Assembly (NCBI GenBank): GCA_902825985.1
Contig: CADEDC010000005.1
Location: forward strand, 6,297 to 70,296
Reading direction: 5' to 3'
Origin: an uncultured Acidobacteriota bacterium
Lineage (GTDB): Bacteria > Acidobacteriota > Vicinamibacteria > Vicinamibacterales > CAVVIG01
DNA length: 64,000 nucleotides
A model generated the notes under the pieces. That model saw only the letters and a list, made by a program, of their open reading frames with translations, had not been told where the DNA came from and ran no database searches. The position numbers and the translations under genes were made by a program. This document shows positions 20,304 to 31,804 of the stretch, in pieces (within the stretch, counting starts at the first letter, position 1; every line of letters begins with the position of its first letter).

Positions 20304-20345
20304 GACTTTCTCAGGCTTTTTGAAGTCGCGCCTGCCCCGTCGGCG

Positions 20346-20360
20346 TGGCACGGAGGGTGC
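20346..20360 (+). promoter_or_regulatory. sigma-54 (-24/-12) promoter of first HTH gene
   Basis: TGGCAC-GGAGG-GTGC with correct GG-N10-GC spacing, the sigma-54 pattern (consensus TGGCAC-N5-TTGC). Expected transcription start near 20372, just before the GTG at 20374. Confidence 0.65.
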
Positions 20361-20373
20361 CGGCCACAGGGGC

Positions 20374-20937
20374 GTGGCTTACGTATCCCAGCCGTTCCGT
20401 ACGTTACTGATCCAGGACGCCGCCAGATTGATGGGCGTTTCGCGCCGCACGGTGTACTACCGGCTTCGTGAGGGCCGGCTCCAGTCGGTCAAGACGCGCG
20501 GCGGTTCGCGCCGGATCGTGGTGCCGTCCATCGAGTGGTTGCGCCGCCAGGGCCTGCGGAAGAATGCGGCGCTTCGACGGCGAGAGAAGGCCGGCGGCGT
20601 CGACTCCCGATCAGAGACCAAAACGCAACCGCTTCAGATACAGCCCCTTGCGCGAGATTCCGAGGGTTCGGGCGGTGTCGTCGAGCCTTCCGCTGCTGGT
20701 CTTCAGCGCGGCGGCGATCATGTCGCGCTCCATCCGGGCGAGCGCGGCGTTCAGCGTTTCGTGGCGGAGGCCGCGTCCATCCCGCGCGACATCCGCCTGA
20801 CCGTGCCGTCCGCGCCGGATATCGGGCGACAGCGCGTCGGCCGTGATGCGGGTGTCGTTGTCGGCCAGGGCGACGACCCGCCGCAGTTCGTTGCTCAGCT
20901 CGCGGACGTTACCGGGCCAATGGTAGAGCCCCAGTAG
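20374..20937 (+). CDS. small MerR/excisionase-type HTH protein, with antisense C-terminal extension
   Basis: The first ~55 residues are a winged-helix excisionase-type DNA-binding domain (IQDAARLMGVSRRTVYYRL, then EGRLQSVKTRGGSRRIVV), closely matching the paralogue at 27561. The frame then has no stop until 20937, so 327 bases run antisense through the end of the sigma-54 regulator and give ~110 Pro/Gly/Arg-rich residues of no recognisable fold. Either the original stop was lost or the product really carries this tail. Start uncertain: GTG 20374 is nearly leaderless relative to the sigma-54 promoter. Predicted DNA-binding regulator. Confidence 0.55.
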   Translation: MAYVSQPFRTLLIQDAARLMGVSRRTVYYRLREGRLQSVKTRGGSRRIVVPSIEWLRRQGLRKNAALRRREKAGGVDSRSETKTQPLQIQPLARDSEGSGGVVEPSAAGLQRGGDHVALHPGERGVQRFVAEAASIPRDIRLTVPSAPDIGRQRVGRDAGVVVGQGDDPPQFVAQLADVTGPMVEPQ

Positions 20938-23337
20938 TTCGAGCGCCTCGTCATCGAGCTGGATTTGCCCCTTCTCGTATTCTGTGGCGGCCTTCTGGAC
21001 GAAATGACGGGCCAGGAACGGGATTTCGTCGCGCCGCTCGCGAAGCGGCGGGATGCTCAACGGCACGACGCGCAGCCGGTAGAAGAGGTCGGCGCGGAAT
21101 CGGCCCTCCTGCACCAGCCGCTCGAGATTCGCGTTCGTCGCGGCAATGATCCGGGTGGCCACCTGCACGGGTTCGGCTTCACCCAGGGGGTTGATCTCGC
21201 CTGATTCCAGGAACCGCAGCAGCTTCGGCTGCAGGTCGAGCGTCAACTCGCCGACCTCGTCGAGAAACAGCGTGCCGTCCTTGGCGATGCGAACGACGCC
21301 GGGGTGGTCACGCTCGGCGCCGGTGAACGCGCCGCGGCGGTAGCCGAAGAGGTGGCTCTCGAGCAGGTCGCGTGGAACCGCGGTGCAGTTGAAGGGGACG
21401 AACGGGCGTCCCGGGCGATTCGAGTAGCGGTGCAGCGCGCGCGCGACGATTTCCTTGCCAGTGCCGCTCTCACCCGTGATGAGGACGCTCGCCGAGGTCG
21501 GCGCGACTTTTCTCACCAGTCGCATCACCTCGCGCATCGCGCCTTGAATCACGGCGTCATCGTCGGCATCCTGCAGTTCTTCGACCGGCCAGAGTCCGAG
21601 GCGTTCTTCGCGCTCGGCGCGCGCCGCATCGAGATCGCGGACGACCTCGAGCAGGGAGGACACCGCGTTGACAGTGGCAATTCCGTCGACGTTGCGCATC
21701 GGTTCGTAGGTGAGCTCGATGCTGCGGTTGCGTGACGTGCCGATGCAGATGGTCCGGCTCTGTAGCGGAGCAGTGCCGTCGTCCGGAACGGGAATGGCGT
21801 GGGCCGCGAGATGTTCGACGCGACCGTCGTCGTGACGAGCCGCAGCCGAGACGCGGGCGATGCATCCGGTGGCCGCCAGCACTTCGACGAGGTCTGTCGC
21901 GAGGAGTTCCGGCCGGCCGACGTGAAGCAGCAACGCGAGGACGTCCTGCACGGCGCGAGCGGCGTGTGACGCCTGCGCCGGGTCGGGCGGTGACAGCCGC
22001 TGGGCGATTGGCAGGGACACTCCGAGCGACGCAGACGCGCGTTGCAGCTGCATCTGTCCCGGGCGATGCCGCAGGCCATCGTATACGCGGGCTGCTCGGC
22101 CGAAGTGAGCGATACCGGAGGCTTCGCGCGATCCGGCGACTGCCGATCCGAGGACGCGTTCGTAGTGGGCCAGCAGTTCAACCGGCAGCGTCGCGACGGA
22201 GGTCCGCAGGCTGTCGACGAGCGTGATCAGTTCACTGTATCGACCCTGCAGGCACAGAATCTCTGCGCGGGTCAGATCGCACAGGTTGCGCAGCAGTCGA
22301 TCTCCTGAACGCTCGGCGAGTTCGTAGGCCAGAGCAGTTTGCCTGAGGGCGTCTTCGTACCGACCCTCGTGCTGCATCACAACGGCGCGCGTTAACTGAG
22401 CGTGGCGGTGTGTGTAGAGCGTTAAGTCCGATTCTGACCGCATGGCGGCATCAACCGAGTCGAGACACTGGTTGGCTGCTTCGATATGCCCCTCGAAGAG
22501 GTTCAACCTAGCGGTACTCTCAGCGAGCCCCTTGCAGTACTCGCCGTCCGTTTGCAGCTCATCAGCCGCACGTCGGTAAAAGTCGCGCGCCTTTTCCCAG
22601 GAGCCTTCAAGTACGAAAAGGTTTCCGAGATTCCCAAGGCATGCACGTTTTACCGCGGCCGCACCGCTCAACTCTGACGCGGCAGACGCAGCAATGGCAT
22701 GCTTCATACCTGTCTCGAAGTCTCCCTCGATCAGAGCGAGGCCAACGAGCGTGTTCTCAGCCAATGCCGTAAGCCAGACATTTGGGGTGTAGTTCAAAAG
22801 CTTGAGGCCCAGCACTGTATGCCGCCGTGCGGTCTGCCGGGCCCCGTGCTTGGCTGCGACCTCGCCCACGAAGACATGAAGTGCCGCTGATGTGAGGGGG
22901 TCGCCCAGTTTGACTACCTCAAGCCTGCACTGTGAGATCCAGGGCGCAGAGGCTTGAGCGGATAGCTTTCCACACTGGGCAACGAGCAGTCTTAGTTGGA
23001 CCCAGCACACGCGTCTGGCGTCATTAGCTTGACGGGCAAGCTCCAGTGCTTTAACAAAAAGCTCAATGCCTCTGTCGAACCGGCCCTCATCTAACTCGAT
23101 TCGTCCAAGAGCTGCCCGGCAGTCCGCTTGATAGGCCGGGGCGAGCAACCTTGAGCGCAGCGCCCGTTCAGCCAAATGGCGGGCCCTGCCATAGTCTCCC
23201 AATCGTTCCAGTAGTTCGATCCGAAGGATGTCCGCCCGTTGTCGTTCCGCAGTCGTGACTGTGGCGCCGTTGAGGGCGCGAAGCGCTTCTGCAAAGCGTC
23301 CTTCGTTGGCTAGGACAAGCGTGTCTTGTAGTCGCAT
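20611..23337 (-). CDS. sigma-54-dependent enhancer-binding protein with TPR sensor
   Basis: 908-residue transcription activator. N-terminal ~430 residues are helical TPR-like repeats (ANEGRFAEALRALNGA; LGDYGRARHLAERAL; ELDEGRFDRGIELFVKAL), then a GAF-like linker domain (~470-590). The AAA+ core has Walker A GESGTGKE near residue 622, the sigma-54 contact loop GAFTGA near 671, Walker B GTLFLDEVGEL and arginine finger region FRADLFYRLRVVPLSIPPLRER. A Fis-type HTH ends the protein (DDTARTLGISRKGLYLKRL). It should remodel sigma-54 polymerase at -24/-12 promoters, two of which flank this cluster. The TPR half is visibly lower in G+C than the rest. Confidence 0.92.
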   Translation of the reverse strand: MRLQDTLVLANEGRFAEALRALNGATVTTAERQRADILRIELLERLGDYGRARHLAERALRSRLLAPAYQADCRAALGRIELDEGRFDRGIELFVKALELARQANDARRVCWVQLRLLVAQCGKLSAQASAPWISQCRLEVVKLGDPLTSAALHVFVGEVAAKHGARQTARRHTVLGLKLLNYTPNVWLTALAENTLVGLALIEGDFETGMKHAIAASAASELSGAAAVKRACLGNLGNLFVLEGSWEKARDFYRRAADELQTDGEYCKGLAESTARLNLFEGHIEAANQCLDSVDAAMRSESDLTLYTHRHAQLTRAVVMQHEGRYEDALRQTALAYELAERSGDRLLRNLCDLTRAEILCLQGRYSELITLVDSLRTSVATLPVELLAHYERVLGSAVAGSREASGIAHFGRAARVYDGLRHRPGQMQLQRASASLGVSLPIAQRLSPPDPAQASHAARAVQDVLALLLHVGRPELLATDLVEVLAATGCIARVSAAARHDDGRVEHLAAHAIPVPDDGTAPLQSRTICIGTSRNRSIELTYEPMRNVDGIATVNAVSSLLEVVRDLDAARAEREERLGLWPVEELQDADDDAVIQGAMREVMRLVRKVAPTSASVLITGESGTGKEIVARALHRYSNRPGRPFVPFNCTAVPRDLLESHLFGYRRGAFTGAERDHPGVVRIAKDGTLFLDEVGELTLDLQPKLLRFLESGEINPLGEAEPVQVATRIIAATNANLERLVQEGRFRADLFYRLRVVPLSIPPLRERRDEIPFLARHFVQKAATEYEKGQIQLDDEALELLGLYHWPGNVRELSNELRRVVALADNDTRITADALSPDIRRGRHGQADVARDGRGLRHETLNAALARMERDMIAAALKTSSGRLDDTARTLGISRKGLYLKRLRFGL

Positions 23338-23515: not shown

Positions 23516-25489
23516 TCAGTGGATGCTGGGACCGAAACGTCCAGAGGTCGGTCGGTTGCCGAGCCTCGGGCGGTCGGCAGGCGCGCCATCCTTGGCAACG
23601 GCGGGCCGAAGGCTCATCCCGATGTAGCGGGCGGCCATCTCGATGATGCGGCGATGGTCTTCTGTGAAACCGTCCGAGCTGGATGAGTAGACGGTGAACA
23701 CGCCGACAAGTTGCTCCTGGACCAGCAGCGGCGTGCTGAGACAGGTGCGCAGCCGCGGGTTGATGCTCTTGGCGACTTCGCCGAGGTCGAGCACCGCGTC
23801 AGAGTTCATCATCGTCTGACGGTTGGCAGCAACCCAACCACTGAGACGCTGGCCAGGGGCGATGCGCATGTCGCGCACGAGCAGCGCACCTTCGCCAACC
23901 GAGTAGGTGGCGACGATCTCGTCGGTCGTGTCGTCATACGTGAAATAAACCGCGAGAACGAATGGTATCAGGCGACGAATTTTCGAGGAGATCGCGTCGA
24001 CACTCTGCGAAAAATTCGGCTGCTCGTTCAGGATGGTCGTCAGCTCGAACACGGTTCGCATCTCGTCCGAGCCGGCAGCGATGTTCTCGAAGCCGGCGGT
24101 CTGCTGCTCGGACTCTCGAGGCTGCGCCGCTGCCGTCGTAATGTCCTTCAGCATCGACTCCGTCGGCGCCGGGTCGTGGGCTGCCGGTGCTATCTCGGTG
24201 TGCACCCGAATGAACGTATCCACGATGAGCGGGTCGTACATCGTCCCGCGGCGTTCGAGCAGAATGGCGATCGCGTCGTCGTCGGACAGCTTTGGGCGAT
24301 ACGGTCGGTCTGACGTGAGGGCATCGAAGCAGTCGACTACCGACAGGATGCGTGCCCCAATCGGGATGTCGGTGCCCTTGAGACCGGCGGGATAGCCGGT
24401 GCCGTCCCAGTTCTCGTGATGGTGACGGACGATTGGCACGACCGGATACGGGAATTCGATCGCCGAGAGTATGTCCGCGCCGACCGACGCGTGGACCTTC
24501 ATCTTCTCGAATTCGGCGCCGGTGAGCTTGCCCGGCTTGTTCAGGATGTATTCGGGCACGGCCAGCTTGCCCATGTCGTGCAGCAGCGCCGCCGCCTCGA
24601 TGGCGCGAATCAGCTTCTCTTCCGAAACTCCGACGCGCCGCGCCAACCCGACCGCGTAACTCTGAACCCGGCGGATGTGACCGTGCGTGATCTGGTCCTT
24701 CGCGTCGATCGCCATGGCCAGGGTCTCGATGGTCGAGAGGTAGAGGCGGTTGAGCTCCGTCAGGTGTTTGTTCGTGTCATCGACGCGCCCCATGGCGGTG
24801 CGGAACGTGAGGTACATGACGACGAGCAACGGCACCATGATGGCAAGCGCGCTGAAGTCGAGCTCCCGCGTGTAGGTGACAATCAGCGCGGCGACCGACG
24901 CACCGCTGAAATACGTCACCGACAGCCAGGTGAAGTTCTGCCACCACACCTGCACCGCCGACTTGCCGGTTTCCAGGGCCACCACGAACGCCACCAGCCC
25001 GCTGTTCAGAAGGAAGTAGAGCGTTGTGAACAGGAATAGCGGCAGGAACAGCGCCGGCAGCGGCGTCGCCGCCTGGGCGTACGGAGCGATACCCGACGTC
25101 AGAAAGAACGCCTGTCCGGAAAGCCAGATGGAGACCGACGGCGCGGCGAGGTTGAAAAGGACGCGGTGTGCGGGGCGCCCCTGCGGTTTCATCCAGAAAA
25201 GGATGACCAGACACTCGAGCAGGACGGTGATGGCGCCGGCTGCCGGTCCGAACAGCAGCACCGAAGCGAATACGAACGTCTCGGAGACGGAGATGTGTGC
25301 GTTGACCGCCGGCACCTTGACCGTGAAGGAACCGGTCAGCAACGTGAGCCCAGCCAGGATCAGCCACTGGGTGCCAATCGGACTGACATACAAGGTGTTG
25401 AGCGAGTACAACACCGTCGCGGCGCCGAGCAGCACCACAACGCTGACATAGGCTCTGACCTTGGGCGCTAGCTTGAAGAATTCGTCCAT
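23516..25489 (-). CDS. membrane HD-GYP phosphodiesterase with GAF domain
   Basis: 657 residues from ATG 25489 (a TTG at 25531 would add 14). The first ~230 residues contain seven to eight hydrophobic segments forming a MASE-like membrane sensor. An HD-GYP domain follows (TNKHLTELNR linker; HGHIRRVQSYAVGLARRVG; LLHDMGKLAVPEYILNKPG; HHHENWDGTGYPAGLKG; DCFDALTSDRPYR), expected to hydrolyse cyclic-di-GMP. The C-terminal ~180 residues are a GAF domain (LSGWVAANRQTMMNSDA; LVGVFTVYS). It lies between the S8 protease and the sigma-54 regulator on the same strand, linking second-messenger control with the cluster. Confidence 0.9.
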   Translation of the reverse strand: MDEFFKLAPKVRAYVSVVVLLGAATVLYSLNTLYVSPIGTQWLILAGLTLLTGSFTVKVPAVNAHISVSETFVFASVLLFGPAAGAITVLLECLVILFWMKPQGRPAHRVLFNLAAPSVSIWLSGQAFFLTSGIAPYAQAATPLPALFLPLFLFTTLYFLLNSGLVAFVVALETGKSAVQVWWQNFTWLSVTYFSGASVAALIVTYTRELDFSALAIMVPLLVVMYLTFRTAMGRVDDTNKHLTELNRLYLSTIETLAMAIDAKDQITHGHIRRVQSYAVGLARRVGVSEEKLIRAIEAAALLHDMGKLAVPEYILNKPGKLTGAEFEKMKVHASVGADILSAIEFPYPVVPIVRHHHENWDGTGYPAGLKGTDIPIGARILSVVDCFDALTSDRPYRPKLSDDDAIAILLERRGTMYDPLIVDTFIRVHTEIAPAAHDPAPTESMLKDITTAAAQPRESEQQTAGFENIAAGSDEMRTVFELTTILNEQPNFSQSVDAISSKIRRLIPFVLAVYFTYDDTTDEIVATYSVGEGALLVRDMRIAPGQRLSGWVAANRQTMMNSDAVLDLGEVAKSINPRLRTCLSTPLLVQEQLVGVFTVYSSSSDGFTEDHRRIIEMAARYIGMSLRPAVAKDGAPADRPRLGNRPTSGRFGPSIH

Positions 25490-25539
25490 CGGGGCCGAAA
25501 CCAGTCTAACTGGCAAGTTCCGGCCCTTCAATTATCGGG

Positions 25540-25609: not shown

Positions 25610-27538
25610 CTATCCCCAAATGATGGTGTCGTTGGCGTCGCCGCTACCCCAAACGATTGTGTCGTCGCCATCGGAGCCCCAAACGATGGTGTCGTCGTCC
25701 GACGCCGACCCCCAAACGATGGTGTCATCTCCGTTACTACCCCAAACGATTGTGTCCTCCGACTGACTGCCCCATACGATGGTGTCGCCGGCGGCGTTCA
25801 GTCCCCAGACGATCGTGTCCGCACTGGCGGAACCCCAAACGATCGTGTCGAGGTCGCTTGAACCCCACACAATCGTGTCACTTTCGTTTGAACCCCAAAC
25901 GATGGTGTCATCGAGGCTTGTGCCCCAAACGACCTTGTCCAGGTGATCAGAACTGCCCCAGACGATGGTGTCCGAAGTCGAACTCCCCCAAACGATTGTG
26001 CTGCCCCAGACAATCGTGTCATCGCTGCTAGAGCCCCAGACGATGGTGTCCGAGTTGGAGCCCCAGACAATCGTGGAGCCCAGGATCTGGCCTGATTTCG
26101 CATTCGACTGACCGGCGCCCAGCGCGGCGGTGACTCGGCGCGTTCCCACGGTAGTGAGCCCACTCGCCAGAATCGTTTCACCTGCGATCGTCGTTGGCAC
26201 GCCCGCCGCCCGCGGGCGCGATACCAGGTTCACCGCCGCCAGAGCGTTCAGGCTGCCGGCCCCTGACGCCACCAGACCCGCGTCCGCCATGTACGACGCG
26301 CTGATCTGCAGGGCGGCCCGGATGTCCACCGGCTTGAGGCCGGGGCGACGGTCGAGCATCAGCGCGACCGCGCCGCTCACCACGCCGGCCGACATGCTGC
26401 TGCCGGACAGCTGGATGTAGCCGTCGGCTCCGCTGCCGGTCACGTGCCGCTCGGGCGTCAGCGCGGCGAGCGTCGAACCGTCGGCTTCAGCGGCGACGAT
26501 GTTGCGGCCTGGGGCCACCAGGTCCGGCTTGACCAGCTGGTCGTACATCGTCGGACCCTTGGAGCTGAACTTGGCAATCCGGTCGTCCGAGCGGACCGCG
26601 GTGCCTCGCGTGTCCAGCGCGCCCACGGCGATGACCGCCGGATGATTGGCCGGCGACGTGATGCCGCCAAAAATCGATTTGCCGTCCGCCGTCTGGCCGA
26701 AGTTGCCTGCCGCCGCGACCACCGTGATGCCCGCCTTGACGGCCCGCGCCGCCGCCTGGCCGAGCGGGTCGTCCCTATAGCTCTGAAGTACCGGCGCACC
26801 GAGCGAGAGGTTGATGACGCTGATGTCGAAACGGCGCTGGTTCTCAATCGCCCAGTCAATGGCGTCGATGACGCTGCTCATCCGGCCGACACCGTTGTCG
26901 TCGAGCACGCGCAGGCTGACGATGCGGGCGCCGGCGGCCACGCCACGGTAGTCGGCGGTATCGACCGTCCGGCCGGCCGCGCCGGCGATGAGCGACGCGA
27001 TGTGGGTCCCGTGCCCGTAGCCGTCGGCCCCGTCGCCGCCCGTGAAGTCGACGCTGGCGAGCACGCGATTGCGCAAAGCGTGGTGCCGCCAGTCGACGCC
27101 CGAGTCGATGACGGCGACGACCACGCCGTGGCCGTTCAGCGGCCGGGCGAAGACGCCAGCGCCGTCCCAGACCTGGTCGGCGCCAATGGTTTCCCTCGTC
27201 ACCTCGGCGCTAGCCCGCACGACGACGTCACCCGACAAGTGGTCGACGCTGATGTCGTCGCGCAGCGCCGACAACTGGCCGGCGTTGATGTCGAGCACAG
27301 CGCCATTCTTCAGGTAGCGCTTCACGCGGACCGCGTGTTGGCGCACCAGGCCATCCACGTCGACGCGCGAGCCGTCGACGATGACGTCGATATGCTGGTC
27401 GCCGGCGGACAGCCGAGCCGACAGGTCGCCGCTCAGCCTCGCGTGCCGCTGTGCGCTGACCGGCGTCGCCGCTGCCAGGAGGCCGACTGAGAGCAGAGAA
27501 CTCAGAACCGCGCGGCGCATGAACGACGTGGTTGTCAT
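25610..27538 (-). CDS. secreted S8 subtilisin-like protease with DTIVWG repeat tail
   Basis: 642 residues from ATG 27538 (GGAG six bases upstream); a longer open frame to 27853 is not used because it overlaps the HTH gene. Signal peptide ends ATPVSA at residues 24-29. The S8 catalytic triad is D145 (AVIDSG), H176 (GYGHGTH) and S381 (SGSSMSAG), with oxyanion N279 (AAAGN). Residues ~489-642 are 16 tandem (D)TIVWGS units of 8-12 residues. Repeats of the VVWG/IVWG type occur on S8 proteins of Acidobacteriota, role unknown; surface anchoring, assembly or self-recognition are possible. It follows the HTH gene by 22 bases behind a sigma-54 promoter. Confidence 0.92.
   Translation of the reverse strand: MTTTSFMRRAVLSSLLSVGLLAAATPVSAQRHARLSGDLSARLSAGDQHIDVIVDGSRVDVDGLVRQHAVRVKRYLKNGAVLDINAGQLSALRDDISVDHLSGDVVVRASAEVTRETIGADQVWDGAGVFARPLNGHGVVVAVIDSGVDWRHHALRNRVLASVDFTGGDGADGYGHGTHIASLIAGAAGRTVDTADYRGVAAGARIVSLRVLDDNGVGRMSSVIDAIDWAIENQRRFDISVINLSLGAPVLQSYRDDPLGQAAARAVKAGITVVAAAGNFGQTADGKSIFGGITSPANHPAVIAVGALDTRGTAVRSDDRIAKFSSKGPTMYDQLVKPDLVAPGRNIVAAEADGSTLAALTPERHVTGSGADGYIQLSGSSMSAGVVSGAVALMLDRRPGLKPVDIRAALQISASYMADAGLVASGAGSLNALAAVNLVSRPRAAGVPTTIAGETILASGLTTVGTRRVTAALGAGQSNAKSGQILGSTIVWGSNSDTIVWGSSSDDTIVWGSTIVWGSSTSDTIVWGSSDHLDKVVWGTSLDDTIVWGSNESDTIVWGSSDLDTIVWGSASADTIVWGLNAAGDTIVWGSQSEDTIVWGSNGDDTIVWGSASDDDTIVWGSDGDDTIVWGSGDANDTIIWG
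25613..26076 (-). repeat. tandem repeat encoding 16 (D)TIVWG units
   Basis: On the plus strand CCCCA(A/G)AC(G/A)AT(N)GTGTC recurs every 24-36 bases, in frame with the protease. Variation falls in the spacer residues (SNS, SSSD, SSDHLD, LNAAG, SGDAN), while IVWG is nearly invariant; one unit is KVVWG and the last in-frame is TIIWG. Confidence 0.9.
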
Positions 27539-27560: not shown

Positions 27561-27821
27561 CTAGGCGTTGGAAGAACCGCGCTGGTGCAGGCTGACGACT
27601 GCCGGTCGCCAGGCGGCGAGGGCGCCTGGTTGCTGCATCGACCCGAGCAGGACCCGCTGCGATCCACCAGGGGTGCGGATGGTCTGCAGGCGTCCATCGC
27701 GAATCCGGTTGTAGATGGTCCGCCGCGAGACACCGAGCAACATCGCGGCGTCATCCAGCGACACGCTGCGACCGATACGAGGCTCAGTTGTGACCGGCGA
27801 CTGCGATTGGGTGCCCGACAT
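27561..27821 (-). CDS. small excisionase-type HTH DNA-binding protein
   Basis: 86 residues. ATG 27821 is chosen because GGAGGA lies 6 bases upstream; an in-frame start at 27899 would place the sigma-54 promoter inside the gene. A single winged-helix domain fills most of the protein (SLDDAAMLLGVSRRTIYNRI, then DGRLQTIRTPGGSQRVLLGSM). It is a clear paralogue of the HTH at 20374 (shared GVSRRT, YxRxRxGRLQ and GGSxR). First gene of the operon with the protease, starting ~18 bases after the predicted sigma-54 transcription start. Confidence 0.8.
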   Translation of the reverse strand: MSGTQSQSPVTTEPRIGRSVSLDDAAMLLGVSRRTIYNRIRDGRLQTIRTPGGSQRVLLGSMQQPGALAAWRPAVVSLHQRGSSNA

Positions 27822-27849
27822 TCGGTTCCTCCGATGCCCATCCATAAGC

Positions 27850-27864
27850 GCACGGTCGGTGCCA
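27850..27864 (-). promoter_or_regulatory. sigma-54 (-24/-12) promoter of HTH-protease operon
   Basis: On the minus strand TGGCAC-CGACC-GTGC, with GG-N10-GC spacing exact. Transcription start expected near 27839, leaving a short leader with the GGAGGA SD before ATG 27821. Same -12 variant (GTGC) as the element at 20346. Confidence 0.75.
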
Positions 27865-27962
27865 GCCAGAGCGGGCTGCGAATATCTGGTGTAACTCATT
27901 GGATTCAGGTATGTTGCTGCTGCTGTAACAACCGAAAGTCTGCCTGGGGCAGGAAGTCATGA

Positions 27963-28102: not shown

Positions 28103-29848
28103 ATGCGTCGTCCACTGTCATATCTGGTTGTCGTGCTGGCCGCCCTCTCCCTGGGGGCAGGGTGCCGGCCGGCTGATCGTCCGCCCGCGGAGCGCTCCAG
28201 CGCCGAATCGGCGAGCGGCGCCGGGACCCCGTCCCGCGGCGGGCAGATCGTCATCGCTGTCCGCACCGAGCCGCAGACGTTCAACCGCTTCACCCGTCGT
28301 GACGCGGCGACCGACCTCATTTCCACCCTGATCAACGCCAAACTCACCCGTATCAACCGGCTCACCCAGGACGTCGAACCGTGGCTCGCCGAACGCTGGA
28401 CCCGCGCCGAGGACGGCCGCCACTACACGCTCACGCTGCGCGACGGCGTCCGGTTCTCCGACGGCCATCCGTTCACCGCCGACGATGTCTTGTTCAGTCT
28501 CGAGGCCCTGTACGACGCGCGGTCCGACAACGTCCTCGCGGAAGCGATGAAGATTGGCGGGAAACCGCTGAAGGCCACGGCCCCGGACGTGCGGACCGTC
28601 GTCCTCGAGTTCCCGGAACCCTTTGCCCCAGGCCTTCGGCTGCTCGACAACCTGCCGATCATTCCGAAGCACAAGCTCGAACCGGCGCTGCGCGCCGGCA
28701 CCTTCGCGGCGGCGTGGGGGGTGGGGACGCCGGTGGCGGAGATCGCCGGCCTCGGACCGTTTGTCCTGGCCGCCTACGTCCCTGGGCAGCGCACCGAGCT
28801 CGTACGCAACCGTCACTACTTCCGTACCGACGAACGCGGCACAGCGTTGCCTTACCTCGACCGCATCGTGGTCGAGATCGTGCCGGACCAGAATGGCGAA
28901 CTGCTCCGCCTCGAAGCAGGTGAGCTCGACCTGACGTTCTCGGAGATCCGGCCCGACGACTACGCACCGCTCAGACGTGCCGCTGACGCCGGCCGGGTCC
29001 GGCTGTACGACCTTGGCGTCGGACTCGATGCCGACAGCTTCTGGATCAACTTGAAGCCGGGGGCGTTTGCCGGTGATCCGCGCTCCGCGTGGCTGCAACG
29101 CGACGAGCTGCGCCGCGCCATCTCGCTGGCCGTGAACCGGCAGCAGTTCGCCGATACCGTCTACCTCGGGGCTGCGGTTCCGGTGTTCGGCCCGATTACA
29201 CCGGCCAATCGGAAGTGGTGGTCGCCCGCGGTGCCGCAGACGCCGCACGACCCGGCGCAGGCGCGACAGCTGCTGGCGTCGCTTGGCCTGACGGATCGAA
29301 ATGGCGACGGCACGCTTGAAGACGCGCGCGGCACCGCCGTCCGCTTCACGCTGATGACCCAGAAGGGGCGCACGTTGATGGAACGTGCCGCCGCCGTCAT
29401 CCGCGATGAGCTCGCGAAGATCGGCGTGATTGTCGACGTGGTCCTGCTCGAGGGCGCCGACCTGATCCAGCGCTTCGTCTCGGGTCGCGGCTACGACGCG
29501 GTCTATTTCAGCGTGCTGACGACCGATACGGATCCGGCGGTGAGTCAGGACTACTGGCTCAGCCGCGGTTCGGGTCACGTCTGGAACCTGCAGCAGCCGA
29601 CCCCGGCGACCCAGTGGGAGCGTCAGATCGACCTGCTCATGGACGAGCAGATGCACACCGCCGACGAGGCGCGCCGCCAGGCGCTGTTCGAGGAGGTCCA
29701 GCGCATCTTCAGCGAGCACCTGCCGGTCGTGCACTTCGCCGCGCCGCGCGTGTACGTCGTTGCGTCCTCGCACGTCACGCACATCACGCCGGCGATCTCC
29801 CGCCCCCAGGTGCTCTGGGCACCGGATATCATCGCCGTCAGGCCGTAA
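28103..29848 (+). CDS. peptide/nickel-type ABC substrate-binding lipoprotein
   Basis: 581 residues, SBP_bac_5 family. Lipoprotein signal LAALSLGAGC, linker, then the family hallmarks: LTRINRLTQDVEPWLAERW, YTLTLRDGVRFSDGHPFTADDV and NRQQFADTVYLG. It binds oligopeptides (or related ligands) in the periplasm for the permeases encoded next. GTG of the first permease follows its TAA after one base. It is first in a five-gene operon. Confidence 0.92.
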   Translation: MRRPLSYLVVVLAALSLGAGCRPADRPPAERSSAESASGAGTPSRGGQIVIAVRTEPQTFNRFTRRDAATDLISTLINAKLTRINRLTQDVEPWLAERWTRAEDGRHYTLTLRDGVRFSDGHPFTADDVLFSLEALYDARSDNVLAEAMKIGGKPLKATAPDVRTVVLEFPEPFAPGLRLLDNLPIIPKHKLEPALRAGTFAAAWGVGTPVAEIAGLGPFVLAAYVPGQRTELVRNRHYFRTDERGTALPYLDRIVVEIVPDQNGELLRLEAGELDLTFSEIRPDDYAPLRRAADAGRVRLYDLGVGLDADSFWINLKPGAFAGDPRSAWLQRDELRRAISLAVNRQQFADTVYLGAAVPVFGPITPANRKWWSPAVPQTPHDPAQARQLLASLGLTDRNGDGTLEDARGTAVRFTLMTQKGRTLMERAAAVIRDELAKIGVIVDVVLLEGADLIQRFVSGRGYDAVYFSVLTTDTDPAVSQDYWLSRGSGHVWNLQQPTPATQWERQIDLLMDEQMHTADEARRQALFEEVQRIFSEHLPVVHFAAPRVYVVASSHVTHITPAISRPQVLWAPDIIAVRP

Positions 29849-29849
29849 C

Positions 29850-30797
29850 GTGCTGTCGTACCTCCTGCGGCGGTGTGCCACCGCCATCCTGCTCGTCTTC
29901 GTCGTGGCCTCTCTGTCCCTGGTGCTGGCACGCCTGGCGCCTGGCGACTACGCCACGGCCTCGCTGGGCGTCGGCGCCCGACCGGAGGCGGTCGCCGCAG
30001 CTCGCGCACGCTACGGACTCGATCGGCCGGTGGCCTCGCAGTATCGCGAATGGATCGGACGCGCCCTTCGCTTCGACTTCGGCCGTTCGTTTGCCTATGA
30101 CCGGCCGGTGCGTGAGCTGATTGCCGAACGGGCCGGGAACACGGCGCTGCTGGCGCTGGTGGCACTGGTGCTGGCCAGCGGCCTCGGCCTGCCGCTGGGG
30201 GTCATCACCGGCGCCCGGCGCGGCGGCGCCCTCTCCGCCACGATCCGGACGGCTTCGGTGGCGCTGCTGTCGATGCCGCCGCTGCTCACGTCGCTGCTGC
30301 TGGTGTTCATCGCCGCGCGCACCGGCTGGCTGCCGATTGGCGGGATGCGGTCGCTGGGGCCGGCGGGCGGCGGAGTCCTGGACCTCGCCGTGCACATGGT
30401 CGTGCCGGTGCTGGCGATTGCGCTGCCCATGGCCGCCTTCCTCGAGCGGCTCCAGTCACAGGCGATGGCCGACGTCGTGACGCAGCCGTTCGTTGTCGCG
30501 GCGCTGGCGCGCGGCGTCCCGCGCGCCCGGGCGATCTGGCGCCACGCGTTCGCGGTCGCGCTCAAACCGGTGGCAGCGATGTACGGCGTGATTGTCGGCA
30601 CCGTGCTGAGCGGCTCGTTCGCGGTCGAGATCGTCACCGCCTGGCCGGGACTGGGCCGCCTCATGCTCGACGCGCTGCGCGCCCGGGACGTCTACCTCGT
30701 GGCCGGCTGTGCCGCGACCGGTGCAGTGATGCTGGCCGTCGGCACGCTGGCCGCCGACGTGGCGTCCGCAACCCTGGATCCGAGAGTGCGGGAATGA
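29850..30797 (+). CDS. ABC transporter permease, DppB type
   Basis: 315 residues from GTG 29850, one base after the preceding stop. Six membrane segments; N-terminal LRRCATAILLVFVVASLSLVLARLAPGD and the EAA-loop-like segment VAALARGVPRARAIWRHAF that contacts an ATPase. Forms the inner-membrane channel with the DppC-type partner, whose start overlaps this stop by ATGA. No ATPase gene is present in the operon. Confidence 0.92.
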   Translation: MLSYLLRRCATAILLVFVVASLSLVLARLAPGDYATASLGVGARPEAVAAARARYGLDRPVASQYREWIGRALRFDFGRSFAYDRPVRELIAERAGNTALLALVALVLASGLGLPLGVITGARRGGALSATIRTASVALLSMPPLLTSLLLVFIAARTGWLPIGGMRSLGPAGGGVLDLAVHMVVPVLAIALPMAAFLERLQSQAMADVVTQPFVVAALARGVPRARAIWRHAFAVALKPVAAMYGVIVGTVLSGSFAVEIVTAWPGLGRLMLDALRARDVYLVAGCAATGAVMLAVGTLAADVASATLDPRVRE

Positions 30798-31804
30798 CCA
30801 CGGCGGGGGATGCGCGCGTTCGCCGGTCGTCCGCCTCGCGGTTCCCGCTCGCCGTGCTGAGCGTGATTCTCCTGCTCGTCGCGCTCGCGCCGGTCATGGC
30901 GCCAAACCCGCCGACGCAGACGTTCCCGACGCTGCTGAACGCGCCGCCGACGACGATCTACCTGCGCGATGGCTCGGGGGCGTGGCGTCCACCCTTCATC
31001 TACCCGTGGAAGCGGCTCAGTCAGCTCGAGCAGACCTACGAGGAGGACCGCGACCGGCCGATCGGATTGCGCTGGGCGGCCGGCGGCCATGTGCTGCAGT
31101 CGGCCGATCCGGATGTGGCGCCGTTGCTGCTGCTGGGCACCGATGGGTTCGGCCGTGACGTGTTCAGCCGCACGCTCGTCGGTGGTCGGTTGTCGCTCGG
31201 TATCGCGGTCCTCGCGTCGCTCGGCGCCCTGTTCATCGGCATCCTCGCCGGCGGCGTCGCCGGATACCGCGGCGGGCTGATCGACGACGTCATCATGCGC
31301 GCCGCGGACATGGTCCTCGTCCTGCCCACCATCTACGTCGTCATGGTGCTGCGGGCCGCGCTGCCCCTGGTGATGTCGTCGACCCAAATCTTCGCACTCC
31401 TCACCCTGCTGTTCGCGATCGTCGGTGCGCCGATCGTCGCGCGCACGGTCCGTGACGTCGTGCGGACCGAGCGCGCCCTCGACTATGCGTCGGCGGCCGC
31501 CTCGCTTGGTGCGACGCCCACCCGCGTGCTGTTCTGCCACCTGCTGCCTGCGGCCACCGGCATCGTCCTCATCGAGATGATGACGTTGGTTCCCGGTTTC
31601 GTCGTGGCTGAAGCGACGCTGTCGTATGTCGGTTTCGGATTCCCCGAGAGCGTGCCGACATGGGGCACGATGCTGCACGAGGCGTCGAACGTGCGCGCCC
31701 TGGCCGATTTCCCGTGGCTCTTCGCGCCGGCCCTGGCCATCTTCCTGGTCGTGCTCGGCGTCAACGGCGCCGTCCGCACGCAGCATCGCGGCCTGCTGAC
31801 CTGA
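30794..31804 (+). CDS. ABC transporter permease, DppC type
   Basis: 336 residues. N-terminal transmembrane helix, a periplasmic insertion of ~100 residues (YPWKRLSQLEQTYEEDRDRP) longer than in DppC of Escherichia coli, GTDGFGRDVFSRTLVGGRLSL typical of the family, and the coupling motif ASAAASLGATPTRVLFCHLLP. Overlaps the upstream permease by 4 bases. Confidence 0.92.
   Translation: MTTAGDARVRRSSASRFPLAVLSVILLLVALAPVMAPNPPTQTFPTLLNAPPTTIYLRDGSGAWRPPFIYPWKRLSQLEQTYEEDRDRPIGLRWAAGGHVLQSADPDVAPLLLLGTDGFGRDVFSRTLVGGRLSLGIAVLASLGALFIGILAGGVAGYRGGLIDDVIMRAADMVLVLPTIYVVMVLRAALPLVMSSTQIFALLTLLFAIVGAPIVARTVRDVVRTERALDYASAAASLGATPTRVLFCHLLPAATGIVLIEMMTLVPGFVVAEATLSYVGFGFPESVPTWGTMLHEASNVRALADFPWLFAPALAIFLVVLGVNGAVRTQHRGLLT

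Follow-up and report, generated by a model that had tools for sequence, protein, structure and literature searches.

The window, a stretch of 64,000 nucleotides from an uncultured acidobacterium, carries on its minus strand a gene for an S8 subtilase with a tryptophan-repeat tail. A gene for a protein with several transmembrane segments (multi-TM) and a regulator gene lie downstream of it. The features are:

25613–27538, minus strand: coding sequence of the S8 subtilase with Trp-repeat tail (642 residues; stop codon at 25610–25612)
27452–27538, minus strand: signal-peptide-like N-terminus, residues 1–29, ending VSA/Q (read by eye, together with a modelled helix 5–22)
27203–27451, minus strand: propeptide-like alpha/beta region, about residues 30–112 (pLDDT mostly above 90)
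26276–27133, minus strand: S8 catalytic domain, residues 136–421 (Peptidase_S8 match)
25613–26071, minus strand: array of 16 [IV][IV]WG units, residues 490–642, the last being IIWG followed by the stop (regular expression and codon comparison)
23516–25531, minus strand: partner gene, MASE9-like membrane domain with HD-GYP (HD_5) and GAF domains, 671 residues (alternative ATG start at 25489)
24700–25489, minus strand: MASE9-like multi-TM domain of the partner, the region that served as query
20611–23337, minus strand: regulator with TPR, sigma-54 activator and Fis-type HTH parts, next downstream of the partner gene
27561–27899, minus strand: small, excisionase-like HTH ORF that immediately precedes the protease gene

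The catalytic part of the window protein is an ordinary subtilase. Peptidase_S8 (PF00082) matches residues 136–421 with an E-value of 1.1e-47, and the best relative in the PDB is 3afg (E 7.2e-43). The triad residues and the oxyanion asparagine (D145, H176, N279 and S381) are invariant across 31 aligned relatives. The protein thus has the PF00082 domain, the Asp/His/Ser triad and the oxyanion Asn by which an S8 subtilase is recognised. It resembles 3afg, the nearest solved S8 subtilase, in catalytic domain, triad and propeptide-like region, whereas the Trp-repeat tail sets it apart. It is not a member of the NCBIfam families mycosin (139.1 bits, cut-off 278.75) or QhpE (65.9 against 165 bits), and it also scores under the cut-offs of PatA-PatG (41.9 against 421.05 bits) and IteS (54.7 against 900 bits). 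The model Tk-SP_N-pro matches the relative L265 with an E-value of 6.1e-4, which is under that model's own cut-off. Judged from its sequence, the window subtilase is probably exported and active.

A sequence-only reading of this DNA had described 16 tandem units on an S8 protease. A regular expression indeed returned exactly 16 [IV][IV]WG cores at residues 490–642 (14 IVWG, one VVWG and one IIWG). The steps from core to core are 9, 10, 6, 10, 11, 10, 10, 10, 10, 11, 10, 10, 11, 10 and 11 residues. The stretch between a WG and the next core is variable, as that reading had stated, but the range it gave (2–6 residues) was slightly too narrow, the measured one being 2–7. The net charge of the tail is –25. 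At the four core positions of the window array pS is 0.62 and pN only 0.027, whereas pN amounts to 0.59 and 0.65 at the two positions after WG. The core peptide is under strong purifying selection and the spacers drift, just as had been proposed. Since silent codon differences are accompanied by nearly no amino-acid change in the cores, selection acts on the peptide, and recent amplification of the DNA does not account for the pattern. Searched at the DNA level, a pattern of three or more cores occurred 28 times in the window's genome and 0 times when reversed. The silent differences among codons and the lack of matches in the reversed controls together exclude recent DNA amplification or chance as the origin of the array.

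The same division between core and spacer was observed between related genomes. Summed over three pairs, 138 of 145 core residues are identical, against 179 of 232 spacer residues. The comparison of repeat number suggested earlier gave variable counts: 13 versus 7 units in the paralogue pair L058/L078 of the window's own genus, and 15 versus 13 and 17 versus 15 in pairs from two other genera.

Arrays of this kind had been expected on other acidobacterial S8 proteins, and relatives do carry them. The three-core pattern matched 28 of 396 genomes in a sample of the phylum, the reversed control none of the 396. In family f1, which includes the window's genome, six of the seven sampled genomes were positive. 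A scan of named genomes returned at least 118 matching loci, and all 118 listed were examined. Three or more cores stand in frame in 81 of these listed matches, and 50 of the 81 also include an S8 ORF. These 50 S8-bearing loci are labelled Acidobacteria or a subgroup, with the exception of L207 (Acidimicrobiia). In-frame matches from other phyla among those listed are without S8, and the ones inspected resemble repetitive DNA or fragments. All convincing Trp-repeat arrays among those examined are acidobacterial. Another locus labelled Acidimicrobiia, L202 (VFZL01000008.1), is probably mislabelled, as it seems to repeat a contig (G237:C8) from the genus to which the window belongs.

For the analysis of gene neighbourhoods we used 89 deduplicated array rows, from which eleven non-acidobacterial or repetitive rows had been dropped and in which a few genes with a broken ORF are counted twice (L077, L125). 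The genes at the fetched loci are raw ORFs. An S8 protease is present in 78 of the 89 rows. The remaining 11 comprise a standalone ORF (L060) and arrays that apparently lie at contig ends, beside masked bases or in broken ORFs. Nearly every array with an intact ORF is the C-terminus of an S8 protease. The standalone array in L060 (11886–12371; L004, 1273–1758), from the window's own genome, is a small ORF with a signal-peptide-like start and six NIVWGT units but no protease. We regard it as a probable remnant or derivative, because L076, L086 and L087 bear full S8 and GNAT genes at the same ruvB-queA neighbourhood.

Spacing differs from protein to protein and ranges from 6 to 20 or more residues outside the window: L044 has 18 strict RIIWGD hexads, L046 has units of 14 residues, and others are mixed. 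The three-core pattern requires cores at least 8 residues apart, or in every second hexad, and hence undercounts strict hexads. It missed L003, which belongs to the window's own genome. When five Trp codons at intervals of 18 nt were taken as the pattern, 24 of 42 IVWG-negative genomes matched, several of these matches being repetitive DNA with equal control counts. In G059, G263, G319 and G327 we found S8 proteins that carry between 7 and 32 [AVY]LW[SA]D hexads in register; further variants are YLWSDA in G054 and TLVWDN in G309. Relatives' arrays include RIIWGD (18 units also in L080), GALWSD (up to 32 in register, the number in L257), GIAWSD and TLVWDN. The consensus from 233 hexads of the [AVY]LW[SA]D kind and 551 of the IVWG kind is x-phi-phi-W-[GSA]-[DNST], the last position being nearly always D in the 233. 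At the level of sequence, a Trp hexad x-phi-phi-W-[GSAD]-[DNST] takes several forms, IVWG being one of them. The tail in the window protein and its relatives is covered by no Pfam or NCBIfam model that scores above its cut-off. Sub-threshold matches on the tails, such as those to LED_rpt and MSCRAMM models, are, in our reading, matches to low complexity.

The partner gene is separated from the protease by a 79-nt gap in which no terminator-like site was found. Its product matches HD_5 (E 2.5e-41), by which it belongs to the HD-GYP proteins, and GAF_2 (E 1e-11). The membrane part resembles MASE9 (PF20972), against which it scores 20.0 bits, below the cut-off of 24.3; other partners exceed it, such as L064 (26.4 bits) and L265 (31.7 bits). 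A MASE9 match at E up to 0.01 was obtained for 24 of 31 partner proteins. The output domains of these 31 vary (HD_5 in 15, GAF in 12, GGDEF in 2, HisKA in 2). Most of the others consist of MASE9 alone; many partners are standalone proteins without an output domain. The Terriglobia-type partner is usually standalone with about 240 residues, and the partner in the window's clade is fused to HD-GYP and GAF.

The position of the partner gene was followed with a MASE9-like profile built from ten neighbours, all of its seeds coming from array loci. In 28 of the 89 rows the gene directly downstream, on the same strand, is MASE9-like (the domain starts 15–239 nt away, median gap 44.5 nt). A MASE9-like gene lies divergently upstream in 4 more rows, and directly upstream on the same strand in 0 of 89. 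A GNAT gene is next in 21 rows (median gap 6 nt), neither gene in 32, and 8 rows have less than 400 nt of sequence. L059, L092 and L117 have both genes downstream. Since a GNAT gene or neither is found next to so many arrays, the array does not require an adjacent MASE9 gene. The 16 acidobacterial array loci of L177–L214 absent from the profile served as a hold-out, although two of them (L185 and L202) duplicate contigs already in the set. Seven have a MASE9-like gene directly downstream, 4 a GNAT gene, 1 a divergent MASE9-like gene and 4 none. When 67 S8 domains were placed on a tree, the window protease fell in a clade of 9 (starred), all followed by MASE9. Neighbour labels cluster on this tree (MASE9 8 changes versus 18.1 when shuffled; GNAT 8 versus 13.7), a clustering that near-copies alone could cause.

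We also looked at 20 MASE9 loci from genomes free of IVWG arrays, to see whether a plain S8 gene adjoins them. An S8 gene lies directly upstream in 4 of these, the other 16 having none immediately next to the MASE9 gene, and all 4 S8 proteins bear Trp hexads with other cores (ILIWGD, GIGWSD, GIAWSD and TLVWDN). Leaving out the window's genome, MASE9-like proteins occur in all 27 genomes with arrays, compared with 25 of the 42 without (Fisher 8e-5, uncorrected for kinship). Adding hexad matches in a hand tally, for which only some of the matches were checked and in which G130 is positive on a few ALWGK units only, raises the array genomes from 27 to 38. Of these 37 have a MASE9-like protein, as do 15 of the 31 remaining genomes; G309 carries an array but lacks a MASE9-like match. 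The window's genome encodes six MASE9-like proteins, four of them far from its S8 matches. The MASE9-like neighbour recurs throughout the phylum, and taken as a whole the pair of subtilase and MASE9-like genes is well supported as a module. A sortase or rhomboid role for the MASE9-like protein looks unlikely from the alignment, because no Cys or His is conserved at the 75% level in 42 MASE9-like domains; one Ser is. The MASE9-like profile gave no match in the PDB.

The TPR/sigma-54 activator gene probably belongs to the same signalling locus, its sigma-54 activator family being present in 12 fetched array neighbourhoods, the window among them. In L080, L084 and L125, too, a homologue of the excisionase-like HTH ORF immediately precedes the protease gene. 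Two homologous small HTH ORFs flank the window locus, at 20320–20937 on the plus strand and 27561–27899 on the minus strand (mutual E 5.9e-13). Upstream of the protease and divergent from it, positions 28103–31804 (plus strand) contain genes for an SBP_bac_5 binding protein and two permease-like proteins; several other array loci have similar genes nearby. No tailoring enzymes were noticed among the conserved neighbour families listed for array loci.

An AlphaFold2 model of the window protein from an alignment of 31 relatives has pLDDT values mostly above 90 in the catalytic part and below 50 for residues 444–642 (mostly 25–35 as block means), and the tail contains almost no regular structure. 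A Terriglobia-type relative, modelled from a 28-sequence alignment that matches nearly column by column, reaches pLDDT values of 23–49 in its tail. Both alignments are shallow, and monomer models cannot reveal an intermolecular zipper. A beta-solenoid, one of the two forms suggested for the tail in the sequence-only reading, is so far unsupported by these models.

We tentatively prefer a reading in which a multivalent Trp-motif tail, acting jointly with the MASE9-like protein, docks the protease at the envelope or assembles it there. Each unit would offer a short hydrophobic stretch ending in Trp and then a turn (x-phi-phi-W-[GSAD]-[DNST]), lineages varying the core letters and the spacer length after each unit. 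Many weak Trp contacts would hold the exported protease at the cell envelope; here we infer that the tail, and not the protease domain alone, touches the partner or the envelope. The protease would form a functional pair with the MASE9-like membrane protein of the next gene downstream; in the window, this partner may relay a signal to a c-di-GMP (HD-GYP) output. Free unit number and spacing and a disordered tail model are as expected of a multivalent motif tail. An analogy is offered by the WG/GW-repeat Argonaute-binding proteins (GW182), which have a disordered region with many WG/GW repeats that are read by Trp pockets (PMC12477606). They show that binding to several pockets at once is a way in which disordered Trp-glycine arrays can work. 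GW182-type proteins are eukaryotic and intracellular, and we claim no homology.

Self-assembly of the tail, the idea of the sequence-only reading, is a serious rival that we judge somewhat less likely. Each hexad would form a four-residue strand and a two-residue turn, and a beta-solenoid or a cross-beta zipper between molecules would anchor or cluster the protease outside the cell. The strict six-residue register with up to 32 units fits this, as do the turn formers after Trp (G/S/A, then D/N/S/T). Measured from the last Trp, most Trp residues of 28 Terriglobia-type tails sit at multiples of 6; the regular tails make little use of offsets 12 and 30, a hint of an 18-residue superperiod. The ten tails first used for the register analysis were, however, picked for regularity, and the unpicked set is less clean. 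In Terriglobia arrays, hexads with and without Trp follow one another in a fixed order; this conserved order is the best argument for a defined tail structure and is left unexplained by a linear-motif reading. Against such a structure speak the nearly structureless models of both tails, the spacing (6–11 residues in the window, 6 to 20 or more in others), which breaks a fixed coil length, and the lack of any Pfam repeat or hexapeptide family above its cut-off.

It is unlikely, in our estimate, that the Trp-hexad tail or its cut peptides are the ligand of the adjacent MASE9-like receptor in a phylum-wide extracellular signalling system of Acidobacteriota, onto which lineages would have grafted HD-GYP, GGDEF or histidine kinase outputs. 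A self-processed multicopy peptide, cut after Trp by the subtilase or a neighbour protease and sensed upon release by the MASE9-like membrane protein, is likewise unlikely, though a serious rival. Many near-identical units with an invariant core and free spacers would suit it, and so would a protease gene adjoining that of a multi-TM, sensor-like protein, the SBP_bac_5 transport genes beside the window gene (family in 7 fetched neighbourhoods, the window included) and the similarity of 2 of 31 partners to an ECF riboflavin S-component (E no higher than 0.01, with 6.4e-4 as the best value). A core common to the whole phylum leaves little specificity, though; standalone MASE9-like partners lack an output domain, and the GNAT lineage mostly lacks an adjacent sensor. 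That the tail is a C-terminal prosequence, which aids folding, export or latency and is removed at maturation, seems improbable: its constant C-terminal place on S8 proteins with a signal-peptide-like start and the acidic, low-complexity window tail agree with this, but selection on the Trp core, up to 32 units and a conserved neighbour gene would be left unexplained. RTX repeats, the calcium beta-roll, have the consensus nonapeptide GGxGxDxUx. Derivation of an RTX-like calcium-binding roll from DDTIVWGS repeats is highly improbable. The window tail shares with RTX repeats Asp-rich turns, a tandem layout and weak similarity to RTX-type chains (PDB E 0.056–0.11), and tblastn found likewise weak similarity to plasmid proteins, one annotated as calcium-binding (E 6e-4). 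It differs in glycine pattern (GG is absent) and in period, and the Asp-rich turn pair is missing from most relatives' hexads. RTX membership is ruled out by the step of 10–11 instead of 9 together with the lack of any RTX family match at E 1 or below.

No description of the array family or of the gene pair was found in Pfam, NCBIfam or the papers searched. The literature searched likewise yielded no description of a tie between a MASE9-like and an S8 gene and no paper on MASE9-like sensors. The Trp-tailed subtilase and the membrane sensor often encoded next to it suggest a so far undescribed module that combines protease and sensor at the envelope of the cell. The Trp hexad is a repeat module without a model in the family libraries searched. 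It is found on several proteases within one genome, and the sampled genomes of the phylum are mostly those of uncultured bacteria from soil and water. The MASE9-like sensors gain a candidate protein partner.

Three minor observations concern the array proteins. An [AV]WG motif just ahead of the hydrophobic core of the signal peptide was seen in 6 of 29 array ORFs (L058, L063, L065, L073, L078 and L119), against 0 of 165 other signal-peptide-like ORFs from the same loci, and also in Terriglobia relatives. At L079 734–1408 the array is preceded in frame by a recombinase-like segment (read by eye), which may be an insertion or an assembly fault. In GNAT-type arrays (for example L058, L073 and L088) one spacer often contains a conserved Cys pair such as CGGADC, which perhaps forms a disulfide loop.
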